42,143 bases of DNA, taken from a virus. Below, one piece after another: positions 47 to 35,250 of this stretch (positions are counted from its first letter, which is position 1; each line of letters begins with the position of its first letter). The position numbers and the translations under genes were made by a program. Where the stretch lies: positions 1 through 42,143 of IMG/VR virus record IMGVR_UViG_3300048589_000350; one strand, given 5' to 3'. A model generated the notes under the pieces. It ran no database searches. It was not told the origin of the DNA and worked only from the letters and a program-made list of their open reading frames with translations.

Positions 47-949
47 ATGAAATCCTGGTTCAAGCACGACTACGCCGCCCGCAACGACGACAAAGTTCTG
101 GAGCTCCGTGCCGAGTTCGGATGGGAGGGCTACGGTATCTTCTGGGCTATCATCGAGTACATGGCCGAGACGAATGGGGGCATCGACACCCGAAAGATCG
201 GAGCTGTGAGCATCGGACTGGGTGTCGACAAGACCCTTCTAACCCGAATCATCGAGTTTTGCCGCAAGGTGGAACTGTTTGAATCCGACGGAAAAATCGT
301 CAGAAACCGCCGTCTTTCGAGTCATCTTTCGGAGATAGAAGCCAAACGGGAAGGGGGTTCACAAGGGGGTAAAAGGTCAGCCCAAAAGAGGGGTTCAAAC
401 AATAGGGCTTCAAGGAATCCTTCAAGCATACCTAACACCACTCCTTCAAGCATACCTTCAAGCATACCTTCAAGGAGTGCTTCAACAGATAAGATAGATA
501 AGATAGATAAGATAGAGAGAGAGTCAGACGCGCGCACGCGCGCGGGGCGCTCTCTCTCGGATTTCGCTTCGCTCATACAGGCCCCGGAGATAGCCGAGAT
601 GATGACCGACATCGCCTCCGAGCACCCCCGATTCCCGGCAGCCGCCGAGAGCTGGTATGGGCACCTGTCGGAGAAGATGGGCAAGCCTCCGACCAAGGCC
701 ATGTACCAGTCCCACATGCACACCCTGTCAAAGATCGCCGACCCCGTGGGCGCTATCGACTACTCGATCACCAACGGCCACAAGTCCATCTACTCCGACT
801 GGGACGACAAGCCCACGCGCCCCAACCGCCAGACAACCACAACCACCGCCGACGAGGCCTCGGGATGGAAACCCTTTGACGACAGCCCCAAGCCGCCCGG
901 ACCCAACCACCCCGACTACCACCGCGTCCAAACCCCGCCCCGAGCCTAA
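47..949 (+). CDS. Replication initiator-like protein (Lin1244/DUF4373 N-terminal domain)
   Basis: This 300-residue protein probably starts phage DNA replication and recruits the helicase encoded just downstream. Residues 1 to about 95 match the Lin1244/Lin1753 (DUF4373) winged-helix type: KHDYAARND near the start and FGWEGYGIFWAI soon after are typical. Residues about 105-165 form a low-complexity linker with PSSI and KID repeats, encoded by iteron-like DNA. A second folded region follows from about residue 170, like the helicase-loading part of DnaD- or O-type proteins, though I cannot assign it to a family. The ATG at 47 has a clear Shine-Dalgarno (AAAGGAG), one of the best in the window. 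Initiator beside dnaB is the lambda O/P or DnaD/DnaB layout. The role is inferred from domain and position. Confidence 0.75.
   Translation: MKSWFKHDYAARNDDKVLELRAEFGWEGYGIFWAIIEYMAETNGGIDTRKIGAVSIGLGVDKTLLTRIIEFCRKVELFESDGKIVRNRRLSSHLSEIEAKREGGSQGGKRSAQKRGSNNRASRNPSSIPNTTPSSIPSSIPSRSASTDKIDKIDKIERESDARTRAGRSLSDFASLIQAPEIAEMMTDIASEHPRFPAAAESWYGHLSEKMGKPPTKAMYQSHMHTLSKIADPVGAIDYSITNGHKSIYSDWDDKPTRPNRQTTTTTADEASGWKPFDDSPKPPGPNHPDYHRVQTPPRA
408..486 (+). repeat. 12-bp iteron-like direct repeats inside the initiator gene
   Basis: Units begin every 12 bases at 408, 420, 432 (degenerate), 444, 456, 468 and 480 (partial). The core is CTTCAAGCATAC; three units (420, 444, 456) are identical, while 408 and 468 differ in the last bases. 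Evenly spaced repeats like this are typical binding sites for a replication initiator. They also encode PSSI tetrapeptides in the protein linker. Confidence 0.7.
488..514 (+). repeat. Three tandem 9-bp AT-rich repeats (GATAAGATA)
   Basis: GATAAGATA occurs at 488-496, 497-505 and 506-514 without interruption, encoding KID three times. Directly beside the 12-bp repeats, this is where a DNA-unwinding element would be expected in an iteron origin. Confidence 0.75.
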
Positions 950-9714: not shown

Positions 9715-9984
9715 ATGAACCAACTCATACCCGCTCCTGAGGGAGCCATCAAGGTCGTCATCAACGTCAACTCCAACCACCCGGCATACGGCCGTCTTAG
9801 CGTTGGGCAGGTGCTCAATGTCGACGAGGTTACGGGAGGACGTTGGCTGTCGATGGGCATAGCTTCGGTTGCACCTGATGTCCCACGCTCTCAGACCAAG
9901 GCGGCAACGCTGGCAGAGCTTGAAGCAGACGCGGCAGACACCAAGCCCAAGACCAAGCGCGGGCGCAAACCAAGGGGAAGCTGA
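9715..9984 (+). CDS. Small head-associated protein of unknown function
   Basis: This 89-residue protein is not recognised by family. The N-terminal 60 residues look beta-rich (AIKVVINVNSNHPAYG, LSVGQVLNVDEVTGGRWLSMG). The C-terminus is charged and basic (KPKTKRGRKPRGS). Location between capsid and connector genes suggests a head decoration or head-tail interface protein. It has no Shine-Dalgarno and its stop touches the next start. Confidence 0.6.
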   Translation: MNQLIPAPEGAIKVVINVNSNHPAYGRLSVGQVLNVDEVTGGRWLSMGIASVAPDVPRSQTKAATLAELEADAADTKPKTKRGRKPRGS

Positions 9985-27355: not shown

Positions 27356-28417
27356 TCATAGCGTGCGAAACCTCTCCCTGAAGCTGTCGGGCTTGCGCCT
27401 GACGATCCAGTCTGCGTAGTTAGCCTCGAGCATCGTCACGCTATGGTGACCCGTGTACTGGATGATCTCGTAGAGCTCAAAGCCTGACATGATGAGGTTG
27501 ATCGCATAGGTGTGGCGCAGGCTGTGCAGTGATATGCCCGCCCCCGCCTTGCCCAGAGCGTCACCCACGGCCTTCTTGAAGCGCTTGCGAACGATCTCAT
27601 AGGACAAAGTGGGAAAAAGCTGCCCTGATGCGTCCGTGTCCATCCTGCGCTCCAGAACGGCCACCAAAGGCGAGGGAATCGGCACGGAGCGGTTCTTGCC
27701 CGACTTGGGCCGAAAGTCCCTGTCCCCGACCGTTATCCATCCGCCCTTCATGTCCACCCACGAGCGGCGCATCGCCACGCCTTCGGCAGCCCTCATGCCG
27801 GTCAGGTACAATGTGCGTATGAAGTCGGCCATGTCGGGATCGGTTGCCGAGCACAGCGCTTCCACCTGCTCGCTGGTCAGGTGTTGTGACACCCTGCGTG
27901 CCCGCTTGCGGCTGGCCACGCCCCTGCGTACGGCCTCCGAGAGCTCCTCGCCTACGTGCCCCGCCCTCGCCGCCCATGCGAGCAGCCTGCGTACCGATGT
28001 CGCACGGTTCGACTGGTGCGTCGGGCTCACGCCTCCCATGCCCACGGCCTTGTTCCACATCTCGGGCGTGACAAGGTGCAGCGGCGTGCGCTCGAACTTG
28101 CCGAGCCTTGCCGTCACCGCTACCTGAGAGCGGTAGTTGGCGAGGTTGCGTTCGGGGCTTCCGTTCTCGTTAAGGTGAGTCAGCCACGCCTCCAGGGCTT
28201 CGGTCACCGTTGCCACGTGCTCGCCGCCTCCCTCGCCTGCCCACGGGTCCCAACCCTCCACGGCTGCCCTGCGCTGGAAGGCCGCAACCTCCCGCTTGAC
28301 CTCCCTTTCCGACACGTAGTCGGCAGGGTACGTGCGCACGATCTCCTTGCGCCCACGGCTACGGAAGCGTACGTGCCACTTGCTGCCCACCTTGCGGTAT
28401 GTGACGGAGAGGGTCAT
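27356..28417 (-). CDS. int: Tyrosine recombinase integrase
   Basis: This 353-residue protein inserts the phage into the host chromosome and, with a helper, excises it. Catalytic residues are all visible when numbered from the ATG at 28417: R209 in LTGMRAAEG, a lysine in DFRPKSGKNR (238 or 241), H298 and R301 in HSLRHT, a histidine in TGHH (324/325), and the nucleophile Y334 in LEANYAD. N-terminal residues 1-75 are an arm-binding-type domain (VTYRKVGSKWHVRFRSRG), and about 75-165 a SAM-like core-binding domain. The start at 28417 overlaps the stop of the lipoprotein gene (ATGA); an in-frame ATG at 28447 is less likely. Confidence 0.95.
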   Translation of the reverse strand: MTLSVTYRKVGSKWHVRFRSRGRKEIVRTYPADYVSEREVKREVAAFQRRAAVEGWDPWAGEGGGEHVATVTEALEAWLTHLNENGSPERNLANYRSQVAVTARLGKFERTPLHLVTPEMWNKAVGMGGVSPTHQSNRATSVRRLLAWAARAGHVGEELSEAVRRGVASRKRARRVSQHLTSEQVEALCSATDPDMADFIRTLYLTGMRAAEGVAMRRSWVDMKGGWITVGDRDFRPKSGKNRSVPIPSPLVAVLERRMDTDASGQLFPTLSYEIVRKRFKKAVGDALGKAGAGISLHSLRHTYAINLIMSGFELYEIIQYTGHHSVTMLEANYADWIVRRKPDSFRERFRTL

Positions 28418-28923
28418 TGCGAAAGCCTCTGTGCAAGCGACTCCCAATAGGCGGGCATGTGTCGGTAGTGGCTCCTATTTGGACGCAAGCTCTGCCACTG
28501 CACGCCGCTTGCCATTTCCATGTTCAACGTGTAAATGACACTTGTGGAATCTGTGCCAACATCTCGAACAAGGAAACTGTGCCTTATACGATAGTTGCCA
28601 GTGAGGGCAATTATAAGGATGCTACCACCTGAGTTCCATCCCGTGGAGATGAGGCCACTCTGTCGGTCTGATGTTTCCACGGTACCGCCGCTCTCGAAGA
28701 TGCCCGAAAGGATAGCGTCGTACACGGCATCCTTGCCATAAGAGAAGCTGTGTGTACGTAGCTCATCGGCTGACGGAGGTGGGGGGCGCTCCGCCGCTTC
28801 ACGGTCGATCTGTGCTTGGTTGTTGGTCGTGTAGCATCCGGTGACGGAAATTGACACCAACGAGATTGCGAGCATCGCAAGTGCTTGCAAACATGAAAAG
28901 CGTTTAATATGTTGACGGGTCAT
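28414..28923 (-). CDS. Lipoprotein in the lysogeny operon (candidate superinfection-exclusion or conversion factor)
   Basis: The protein of 169 residues begins at the ATG at 28923 (an ATG at 28995 would add 24 residues overlapping the repressor gene). It has a signal peptide: a basic start (TRQHIKRF), a hydrophobic stretch (LQALAMLAISLVSIS) and a lipobox VTGC, so it should be lipid-anchored outside the inner membrane. Mature residues 30 onward include FSYGKDAVYDAILSGIFESG and SDRQSGLIST, like small bacterial lipoproteins of unknown function. It lies between repressor and integrase in one leftward operon, so it should be made in the lysogen. Phage lipoproteins in this spot, such as Ltp of TP-J34, block entry of related phages. 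The role here is inferred. Confidence 0.7.
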   Translation of the reverse strand: MTRQHIKRFSCLQALAMLAISLVSISVTGCYTTNNQAQIDREAAERPPPPSADELRTHSFSYGKDAVYDAILSGIFESGGTVETSDRQSGLISTGWNSGGSILIIALTGNYRIRHSFLVRDVGTDSTSVIYTLNMEMASGVQWQSLRPNRSHYRHMPAYWESLAQRLSQ

Positions 28924-31031: not shown

Positions 31032-32018
31032 ATGAAAACACCTATCGAAATCAACATACTTGAACAAGGCGAGCTGATCGAACAGTTTGCCGACTTCTTC
31101 GACCCCGACGCGATACGCGTTCCGTCGTACAAGTTAAGGCGGTGGACGTGGGGGGAGAAACGCACCTACTTTGAGCTTACGCCCGACGGCGAGGTAAAGT
31201 TCTACCACGGCATCACATCCATCCTCAAGGCGCAGATGCCCACACCCTTTGCCCTCATCAAGTGGATTGCCGACAACGGCGTGGAGGGGGGCAGGGAGCT
31301 CCGTGACGAGGCAGCCGCCTACGGAACGGCCATGCACATCGTCTTCGCATCCTTCCTGACCGATGGCGTGTACGACTTTGATCGGGCTTGGGGAACCATC
31401 CCCAACTGGAAGGACGAGTGGAAGGCAAATCTTCAGTCTGACCTTCTTGCGTTTGCCGCCTTCTGCCAGGCTCACCAGGTTAAACCCCTGATGATCGAAG
31501 CCCTGCTCCGTAGCGAGCGTTACGGCTTCGCCTGCACCGTCGACCTTGTGTGCTCGATGAGGGTTGGAAGCGGAGCGAACGGAGCCATCCTCAAGAAGGA
31601 CGGCGAGGGAGAGCAGATCATCGCCGTCGTCGACTTCAAGTCGGGTAGGAAAGGTTTCTACGACAGCCACGCAGCCCAAGCCGTGGCGTGTCTGTACGCC
31701 TACAACGAGAACGGCGTTGGACCCTCTGCCACACGTGCCTTCAACTGGGCACCGAAAGATTGGGTAGGCTCAAGCCCCACATGGACGCTCAAGGAGCAGA
31801 CATCGTTCCCTCTGGCCAAAGTCGAGAACTGGCTCGAGAACCACAGCATCGACCACGACGGCAACTTTGCGCCCAAGCCCATAAGGCTGTACGAGGGCGT
31901 AGTAACGTCCGACATGGACATGAACGAGGCGTTCCGTGATGTTGACGTAGCCACCCTCATCCGCCGCAAGTACGGCCTGCCCGAAACGGCAGCGCTTGAG
32001 CTGATGGAGGTGTCGTAA
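31032..32018 (+). CDS. PD-(D/E)XK nuclease (RecB/Cas4-like)
   Basis: This 328-residue protein probably degrades or processes DNA ends in phage recombination. Motifs in order are AAYGTAMHIVFAS (H102), RYGFACTVDLV (D171), AVVDFKSG (D201 and K203, the D-x-K pair) and AQAVACLYAYN, the tyrosine/glutamine motif of RecB-type nucleases. The ATG at 31032 sits after an A-rich stretch; a GTG at 31014 would add six residues. The Gp3-like gene and SSB follow, so the block works in DNA replication or repair. Confidence 0.8.
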   Translation: MKTPIEINILEQGELIEQFADFFDPDAIRVPSYKLRRWTWGEKRTYFELTPDGEVKFYHGITSILKAQMPTPFALIKWIADNGVEGGRELRDEAAAYGTAMHIVFASFLTDGVYDFDRAWGTIPNWKDEWKANLQSDLLAFAAFCQAHQVKPLMIEALLRSERYGFACTVDLVCSMRVGSGANGAILKKDGEGEQIIAVVDFKSGRKGFYDSHAAQAVACLYAYNENGVGPSATRAFNWAPKDWVGSSPTWTLKEQTSFPLAKVENWLENHSIDHDGNFAPKPIRLYEGVVTSDMDMNEAFRDVDVATLIRRKYGLPETAALELMEVS

Positions 32019-33223
32019 TGAAACTATCTGGACGCATCGAGCGGGGAGGCGGGTCCACGGCCTCCCTGCCCATCTTAGGCAAGATCAAGACGGGCGAGAA
32101 AAGACTCTCGCAGAGCGGCAAGGAGTACCCGGCATCGCTCGACTACTTCAAGTGCACGGGCGACTACGCCGCCCTGTTCCACAAGGTGTACGGCGACAAG
32201 CCCTCCCGCATCACCGTCGTCTTCCACGACGACGACTTCTCGCAGGTCGCCAACGAGCGGCTCGAGCTTCGGGACAAAGCGGGCCGTCTGGTAGGCTCGA
32301 GCGACGGCAACGCCGTCAGGTATTACGACCCAAATGCCGACGCTTACGTGTGGGCTTCCAGGATCAACGACCCCGACATCCACGAGCGCTTGGAGCGGGG
32401 CAACAACGGGCCGAAAGGCTGGGAGGCTGTGCTGACGCTTCGAGTCATGCTACCCAAGATACCGTCGGTGTTCGGGGTGTGGGAGATATCGACCAAGGGG
32501 GAGGCATCATCCATCCCCGCCATCGTCGGAACGCTCAACACGGTCAGGGACATAGGCGGAACCATCCGTGGCGTGCCCATGGACCTGATCGTCGAGAAGG
32601 TGTCGAGCCAGAAGCCCGGCAGCAAGAGTAACTACCCGGTGCTTCGGCTCATCCCGAACCTCTCGCAGGAGAATCTTGAAGACTTGCGTGGGCTGCTTGA
32701 GAGCGGCCTTGCGGCAGCTCGCAGGCTCTCGGTCATCACACCCGAGAAGCTCGAGCAGATAGCGTCGGGGGCGGCTACATCTGGGACGGGCACATCCACC
32801 AAGCAGATCGCCGCTCCGTCTGCGCCCGAGGCCGACGTACCCGAGGCCGAAGTGGTCGTTGAAGCACCCGAGGACACACCCGAAACCGAACCAGCCGTGA
32901 AGATGAACATCAAGCAATATGACCGACTGGTGGAGCTGCTGCCAAACGTGCCCAAGGACTGGGCGAAGGCTGCCGAAGACGCGGCCAAAGACGGCAGGCT
33001 TGCCGACGACAGGGCTGCGGCTGCGCTGCTCACCAAATTCGAGCTGTGCATACAGGCATGCACCATGCTCGTCAACGCCAACGAGGCGGGGCTGATAACC
33101 AACGACGAGGCCGACGACCTGCACCGGCAGATCATCGACATAAACGTCAAGCCCTCCGAGCTCAAGAAACACATCGAAAACATCAAATCCATCCAACAAA
33201 CACCCGAGGAGGTGCAGGCATGA
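32018..33223 (+). CDS. Gp3-like protein (recombination directionality factor-like family)
   Basis: This 401-residue protein begins KLSGRIERGGG, then PILGKIKTGEK and YPASLDYFKCTGDYA, the pattern of the Gp3-like family that includes the recombination directionality factor of phiC31/phiBT1-type phages. Residues about 235-265 contain a linker, and residues 265-300 are rich in Pro, Glu and Ala. C-terminal residues 300-401 are helical. Since the integrase here is a tyrosine enzyme, a true RDF function is doubtful; many family members sit in recombination operons and are called metal-binding proteins. It overlaps both neighbours. Confidence 0.6.
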   Translation: MKLSGRIERGGGSTASLPILGKIKTGEKRLSQSGKEYPASLDYFKCTGDYAALFHKVYGDKPSRITVVFHDDDFSQVANERLELRDKAGRLVGSSDGNAVRYYDPNADAYVWASRINDPDIHERLERGNNGPKGWEAVLTLRVMLPKIPSVFGVWEISTKGEASSIPAIVGTLNTVRDIGGTIRGVPMDLIVEKVSSQKPGSKSNYPVLRLIPNLSQENLEDLRGLLESGLAAARRLSVITPEKLEQIASGAATSGTGTSTKQIAAPSAPEADVPEAEVVVEAPEDTPETEPAVKMNIKQYDRLVELLPNVPKDWAKAAEDAAKDGRLADDRAAAALLTKFELCIQACTMLVNANEAGLITNDEADDLHRQIIDINVKPSELKKHIENIKSIQQTPEEVQA

Positions 33224-34689: not shown

Positions 34690-35250
34690 ATGAGTTTTGT
34701 ATCAAAAATTGCATTCCCTGACGTGTCGCTTTGTGCAAGCACAGACGAATTGCGGCCAAGAATGAACTACATCCTCTATGATAAGGGGTGTTTTGTGGCA
34801 ACCGATGGCCACATACTGGTTAGGATTCCGTTTGAAATCGAACCTGATTCGGGGCTTCCAGAGGTATTCGCAATCCACAGAAAACACTTTAAGCCCCTTA
34901 CTAAGAGTGGCACGGCTCAAAACCCCGTCGAAATTTATTTTGATGACAAGTACCTGATCCGCTTCCACAAGGATGAAATAACCCACATTGTACCGGTCAA
35001 GATCGATTGCGAATATCCGAACTATGAAAAGATTTTAGAAGAATCAAAAAAAGAAGCCGAAACGCCTATCTCGGAGATCGGATTCTTCCCGTCAACCCTG
35101 AGCAGGGCGATGAAGATCGCAGAGGCTATTCTTGGTAGAAATTACGCTATTCGCATGAAGTTGTACGCACAAAACAGAGCAGTACGCATTACATGTGATT
35201 ACACAAAGGGCTTCGAGATGATCGTAATGCCCGCAACACTTAACTCCTAA
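34690..35250 (+). CDS. Short sliding-clamp-like protein (DnaN-like)
   Basis: This 186-residue protein resembles parts of the DNA polymerase III beta clamp. Near the start ELRPRMNYILYDKGCFVATDGHILVRIPFE follows the beta-clamp pattern in which a helix leads to VATDGHRL; written in pieces, ELRPRMNYILYDKG then CFVATDGHILVRIP. The C-terminus IVMPATL echoes the YVVMPMRL end of bacterial clamps. It is only half the usual clamp length of about 370 residues. It could be a reduced clamp that forms larger rings, or a decoy that competes for clamp-binding partners. The leader motif CCAAACGCCAA runs directly into the ATG. Confidence 0.55.
   Translation: MSFVSKIAFPDVSLCASTDELRPRMNYILYDKGCFVATDGHILVRIPFEIEPDSGLPEVFAIHRKHFKPLTKSGTAQNPVEIYFDDKYLIRFHKDEITHIVPVKIDCEYPNYEKILEESKKEAETPISEIGFFPSTLSRAMKIAEAILGRNYAIRMKLYAQNRAVRITCDYTKGFEMIVMPATLNS

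Follow-up and report, generated by a model that had tools for sequence, protein, structure and literature searches.

A probable iteron-type replication origin within the Lin1244_N initiator gene of a phage

Positions 408-558 of the IMG/VR virus record IMGVR_UViG_3300048589_000350 are, with a probability of about 0.83, an intragenic iteron origin with its own unwinding element, at which the initiator would bind, the DNA would open and DnaB would be recruited. The window, here the whole record, is a linear DNA of 42,143 bases with 58% GC, and is possibly incomplete. A preliminary description had proposed a lambda-O-like origin lying within the initiator gene, and as a candidate this is now upheld by DNA constraint within the gene at 47-949 and by the behaviour of the Lin1244_N family to which its product belongs. 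The repeats, the DNA constraint, the family layout, the predicted winged-helix (wHTH) fold and the adjacency to dnaB were all computed here, and the features concerned are as follows.

47-949, + strand: initiator gene, 300 aa, with a Lin1244/Lin1753-like N-terminal domain (residues 4-81), a linker and a helical C-terminal part
47-412, + strand: predicted winged-helix DNA-binding N-domain with a long C-terminal helix (residues 1-122, AlphaFold2 model)
408-431, + strand: iterons 1 and 2 (CTTCAAGGAATC, CTTCAAGCATAC)
432-443, + strand: degenerate iteron slot (CTAACACCACTC), 12-bp register maintained
444-485, + strand: iterons 3-5 (CTTCAAGCATAC twice, CTTCAAGGAGTG) and a half copy, CTTCAA, at 480
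487-516, + strand: A/G-rich short-period array, GATAAGATA three times; putative DNA unwinding element
515-558, + strand: hairpin with arms at 515-523 (GAGAGAGAG) and 550-558 (CTCTCTCTC)
989-2365, + strand: replicative DnaB-type helicase gene (PF03796, E=5.7e-85; PF00772; PHROG 19)

The gene at 47-949 is the first complete gene of the record and has AAAGGAG 5' of its ATG at 47. Its product matches the Pfam family PF14297 (Lin1244_N, DUF4373) over residues 4-81 (E=3.1e-12, 47.5 bits against a curated cut-off of 25) and PHROG 2562, a replication initiation protein (E=2e-10). The AlphaFold2 model of the N-domain has a pLDDT of about 95-98 over residues 11-110; the best Foldseek matches in the PDB are wHTH regulators (ArsR/MarR/CodY), all of them weak (E at least 0.025), and a fold search in a viral library finds resemblance to Lin1244_N, Phage replisome organiser and DUF1376 proteins, which places the product within a broad group of initiators. 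No sequence relative was found in the PDB and no RepA_N structure occurs among the 50 best PDB fold matches, nor is there a Pfam match at E<=0.01 to RepA_N (PF06970) or to Phage_rep_O, lambda O being shared as architecture only. Directly 3' of the gene lies dnaB, so that the initiator-type gene beside dnaB of the preliminary description is borne out by PF14297 and PHROG 2562 on one side and by PF03796 on the other, and this DnaB is the likely client of the initiator. Elsewhere in the record the product of 34690-35250 weakly resembles the beta clamp of DNA polymerase III (PF02767, not reaching the cut-off) and matches both PHROG 947, a processivity factor, and PHROG 3007, named RusA-like; the names conflict, and a phage sliding clamp is a possible assignment. 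The phage is probably temperate, given a Gp3-like recombination directionality factor (PF18897) at 32018-33223 and a tyrosine-recombinase-like ORF, judged by eye, at 27356-28447 on the − strand.

Within 408-486 the heptamer CTTCAAG stands at 408, 420, 444, 456 and 468 in 12-bp register, with identical 12-mers (CTTCAAGCATAC) at 420, 444 and 456, giving five iterons plus a half copy (480) and one register gap (432). The strict 12-bp repeats first reported therefore hold for positions and register, but the slot at 432 is degenerate and that at 480 is a half copy. Directly beside the iterons is the AT-rich putative unwinding element, 488-514, which consists of three perfect GATAAGATA units, as had been noted, with 22% GC as against 58% in the record; the 30-mer from 481 is among the lowest-GC 30-mers of the record. 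The inverted arms at 515-523 and 550-558 are likewise a perfect 9 bp, and as DNA the hairpin at 515-558 folds with −18.3 kcal/mol (z −2.4), though it is unexceptional under the synonymous null (z −1.1). Run over all 42,143 bases, Tandem Repeats Finder places 408-474 first (score 71) and 487-516 second (score 60, periods 9 and 5), so the two best-scoring arrays lie next to one another. Cumulative GC skew, suggested earlier as a check, leaves the site unmarked, its maximum at 407 falling at the very end of the linear record and its minimum at 9782.

Two repeat clusters might have served as a pair of origins, with 408-558 as a subsidiary origin or replication-switch site, in the manner of oriL and oriR of SPP1 (PMC6316719), and single CTTCAAG copies do occur elsewhere in the record. 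However no second cluster of the CTTCAAG iteron or of GATAAGATA is present in the 42 kb record (itself possibly incomplete), and we consider such a subsidiary role extremely unlikely.

All linker repeats of the gene are in frame (12 and 9 bp), and a repeat in the DNA is therefore a repeat in the peptide too; the key issue is then DNA repetition beyond what the peptide demands, and the argument leans heavily on the family evidence. When the peptide was re-encoded 5000 times with synonymous codons drawn at the phage's usage frequencies, and repeated 8-mer pairs were counted, the linker had 56 pairs against a resampled mean of 8.4 and maximum of 37. The stretch 407-496 draws on rare codons, TCA (7% of Ser) and GAT (16% of Asp) among them, and under the same usage its mean cost per codon is 2.86 bits, as against 1.38 +/- 0.25 for 380 background blocks, none of which exceeds 2.48. 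The iterons within the initiator reading frame exceed both chance and peptide demand. That the same bases serve as DNA element and as codons for the linker was already part of the preliminary description, and resampling, codon cost and the family tests all speak for it. Taken by itself the gene may owe its linker repeats to in-frame tandem duplication. Close relatives of the gene were absent from the viral scan, and so a family-wide Lin1244_N test was used instead, the best identity within the family being 36%; a Lin1244_N gene was absent from the 22 TerL-related records searched, and a search of DnaB relatives gave no usable initiator homologue.

The family sample comprised 84 IMG/VR loci and six phage records, leaving 61 linkers after deduplication. 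Fifty-two of these lie above a synonymous-codon shuffle null (1424 repeated 8-mer pairs against 246 expected) and nine have no significant repeat excess. Repeat pairs in different frames are significant in 39 of the 61 (613 against 71 expected), and for these repetition of the peptide is no explanation. In the flanks of these genes the counts stay close to background (N-parts 75 against 61 expected, C-parts 94 against 61), as they do in control segments from 78 neighbouring ORFs (116 against 73; 6 of 78 significant). The order of elements is constant: DNA-binding N-domain, iterons, A/G-rich short-period array, C-domain. Iterons are lineage-specific and often semi-palindromic (ATGCGAACGCA, ATAGCCACCC, TACAAATGTA, ATAGCAAATGCTA), and the array is typically AAAGG/AAAGT with autocorrelation peaks at 5, 10, 15 and 20 bases; five bases being no whole number of codons, the period-5 arrays cannot be peptide repeats. 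Strong hairpins (z<−2) occur just 3' of the array in 19 of 60 genes as against 2-7 of about 60 elsewhere, an excess to be read with the array finder being crude and the iterons supplying part of the signal. Judged at the sequence level the intragenic-origin layout appears to run through nearly all sampled Lin1244_N genes, and the earlier view of a DUF4373-type layout as a singular case gives way to a general one. A set of genes with a Pro/Ala-rich linker (L132, L136-L139, L143, L144), whose representative L132 is without repeat excess, may have its origin elsewhere.

Pairs of family members differ sharply along their length. L141 and L142 are 100% identical in the N-domain, 85% in the linker and 22% in the C-domain, L131 and L135 correspondingly 100%, 84% and 34%, and L116/L123 and L170/L177 also combine an identical or similar N-domain and linker with unrelated C-domains. 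In such pairs C-domains are swapped as modules, with a junction near the array, and N-domain and iterons stay together. Pairwise synonymous divergence is often lower in the linker than in the N-domain (0.07 against 0.15 for L159/L162, 0.22 against 0.41 for L179/L183), but as proof it was set aside, being confounded by amino-acid composition and recombination and reversed in some pairs.

IMG/VR was also scanned by DNA pattern alone, which avoids choosing genes by their protein; the counts are samples and not abundances. Among the matches listed, (AGAWW)5AGA falls within codons 100-185 of ORFs 150-360 aa long at 56 of 107 distinct sites; Lin1244_N accounts for 12 of 41 proteins scanned, Phg_2220_C and Phage_rep_org_N being found also, and many belong to PHROG replication-initiation, DnaD-like and replisome-organiser families. 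The pattern (AAAGK)5AAAG, again among the matches listed, lies at codon 100-185 in 90 of 114 cases, and 40 of the 41 proteins scanned are Lin1244_N. The planned negative control, (AGAWWW)5AGA, itself gave 71 of 109 at codon 100-185, with 23 of 43 proteins being Phage_rep_org_N among the matches listed. A strict five-base period as a general rule was consequently abandoned, as the period-6 scan also yields initiators, and the claim was widened to one in which the array word varies with the family of the initiator. Separately, a set of Phage_rep_org_N (PF09681) and DUF1376 genes (within L313-L370) has AGAWWW arrays at codon 100-185 with repeats upstream, the arrays encoding linkers of the DIDKELDIDKD type.

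Iteron-like repeats keep to one side of these arrays. Among the matches listed they number 758 5' of AGAWW arrays against 200 expected, and 158 3' against 159; for AAAGK arrays the figures are 1189 against 353 and 376 against 334. The AGAWW arrays outside ORFs behave alike, with 655 against 189 expected 5' and 254 against 176 3' among the matches listed, and an iteron-then-array layout in non-coding DNA is a strong argument against a peptide explanation. At eight loci (L193, L198, L206, L211, L220, L237, L240, L265) a cluster of iterons precedes an (AGAWW)n array that lies outside ORFs; several of these sites sit between conserved phage genes, and on this pattern they are candidate non-coding phage origins of like build. 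A rival suggestion is that the linker is simply a low-complexity protein segment whose DNA repeats arose by tandem duplication or slippage, with no role for the DNA. The repeat units in 47-949 are indeed all divisible by three in length and in frame, and Lys/Glu/Asp-rich linkers are common in Lin1244_N proteins. Such an account has to contend with the codon cost and resampling in the gene itself, the repeats that pair across reading frames in 39 of 61 relatives, the period-5 arrays, the way repeats keep to the linker and to a single side of the array, and the same layout outside ORFs, and it is quite unlikely.

A regulatory reading is that the iterons autoregulate the initiator operon, by roadblock or promoter occlusion, while replication starts elsewhere. 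Plasmid initiator iteron arrays often double as autoregulation sites, and as the sites here are within a transcribed gene their binding would affect dnaB transcription. Against this, the iterons are followed by an A/G-rich array and hairpin as in ori-lambda, it is not obvious what the array would do in repression, and the sole nearby promoter-like match (225-252) is at chance level, which leaves a purely operator function very unlikely.

Returning to an origin as the preferred reading, we infer iteron binding, to which the wHTH model and the joint inheritance of N-domain and iterons in relatives point indirectly, array opening, helicase loading and origin activity. The stretch 408-558 would act as a theta-type replication origin inside the gene of the initiator itself, with the winged-helix N-domain binding the CTTnAAG iterons and the copies in 12-bp register building a nucleoprotein complex that would bend or strain the duplex. 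The adjacent A/G-rich array, (GATAAGATA)3, would then open as the unwinding element, and the initiator may grip one strand of it sequence-specifically, as is so for TrfA and RepE. Its C-terminal part would recruit the DnaB helicase of the phage, the product of the adjacent gene. The PSSI/DKI peptide linker would be largely a by-product of the DNA element.

A broader suggestion, to which we give somewhat less than even odds, is that short-period A/G-rich arrays beside iterons are a second, sequence-specific docking site of phage wHTH initiators, with family-specific words within the initiator gene (AAAGK in Lin1244_N, AGAWWW in Phage_rep_org_N, AGAWW in a mixture of families), and that the Lys/Glu/Asp linkers are due to the DNA. 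Were this so, phage origins would be readable from sequence across thousands of genomes; to our knowledge they are experimentally known in few cases, and a limited literature search found no description of origins for DUF4373/Lin1244 initiators. A rule of initiator N-domain, iterons and A/G-rich short-period array finds candidate origins in a family annotated only as DUF4373, accounts for the odd repetitive linkers of Lin1244_N proteins and provides numerous clear examples of DNA on which two kinds of selection act at once. The association of array word with initiator family also yields a testable hypothesis, that of strand-specific initiator binding in the unwinding element.

Set beside known systems, the proposed origin at 408-558 is of a familiar type, but its initiator is from another family. 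That the architecture had arisen independently, as first put, is unsupported as worded, since intragenic origins extend beyond lambdoids (SPP1 oriL, TP901-1 rep) and the predicted fold is replisome-organiser/DUF1376-like; it is rejected as a claim, with the evidence settling neither way, and on the fold comparisons common descent with other intragenic-origin initiators may apply. In ori-lambda the origin is proven to lie inside gene O (PMC7466680). Four iterons are present in the gene O sequence, followed by an A/G-rich AT tract and then an inverted repeat, and ori-lambda shares with 47-949 the placing of the iterons in the linker, the tract, the inverted repeat and a helicase-recruiting gene directly downstream. 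In contrast the initiator is Phage_rep_O in lambda and Lin1244_N here, the lambda iterons are 18-19 bp inverted repeats about 20-24 bp apart rather than a 7-bp core at 12-bp spacing, the downstream neighbour is the loader P rather than DnaB itself, and the array is an exact tandem only in 47-949. SPP1 oriL, a proven origin, has direct repeats and an AT-rich DNA unwinding element (DUE) inside initiator gene 38, which sits in a replication operon with a loader and a DnaB-type helicase, the phage having a second origin, oriR (PMC6316719); the likeness to 47-949, of repeats and AT-rich DUE inside the initiator gene, is one of description only. TP901-1 rep (orf13) has TTTTCCAGATGTGG twice at codons of about 105-115 and then AT-rich DNA, and with the phage replisome organisers has the same layout and a similar predicted fold in a different N-domain family; Phage_rep_org_N genes have A/G-rich arrays in a codon range like that of Lin1244_N, the period commonly being 6 (AGAWWW) there, 5 in Lin1244_N and 9 in 47-949. 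With iteron plasmids 47-949 shares a wHTH initiator (predicted here), direct-repeat iterons and a repeated DUE, and for RK2 TrfA and F RepE the wHTH Rep binds one DUE strand at the DUE repeats (PMC4081077). In the RepA_N initiators of PLE the N-domain covaries with the origin and the C-domain is exchanged independently (PMC8263062), and RepA_N thus resembles Lin1244_N, in the absence of a sequence match, in having an N-domain tied to origin repeats and an exchanged C-domain. The RK2, F and PLE origins lie outside the rep gene, unlike that proposed in 47-949, which lies within it.
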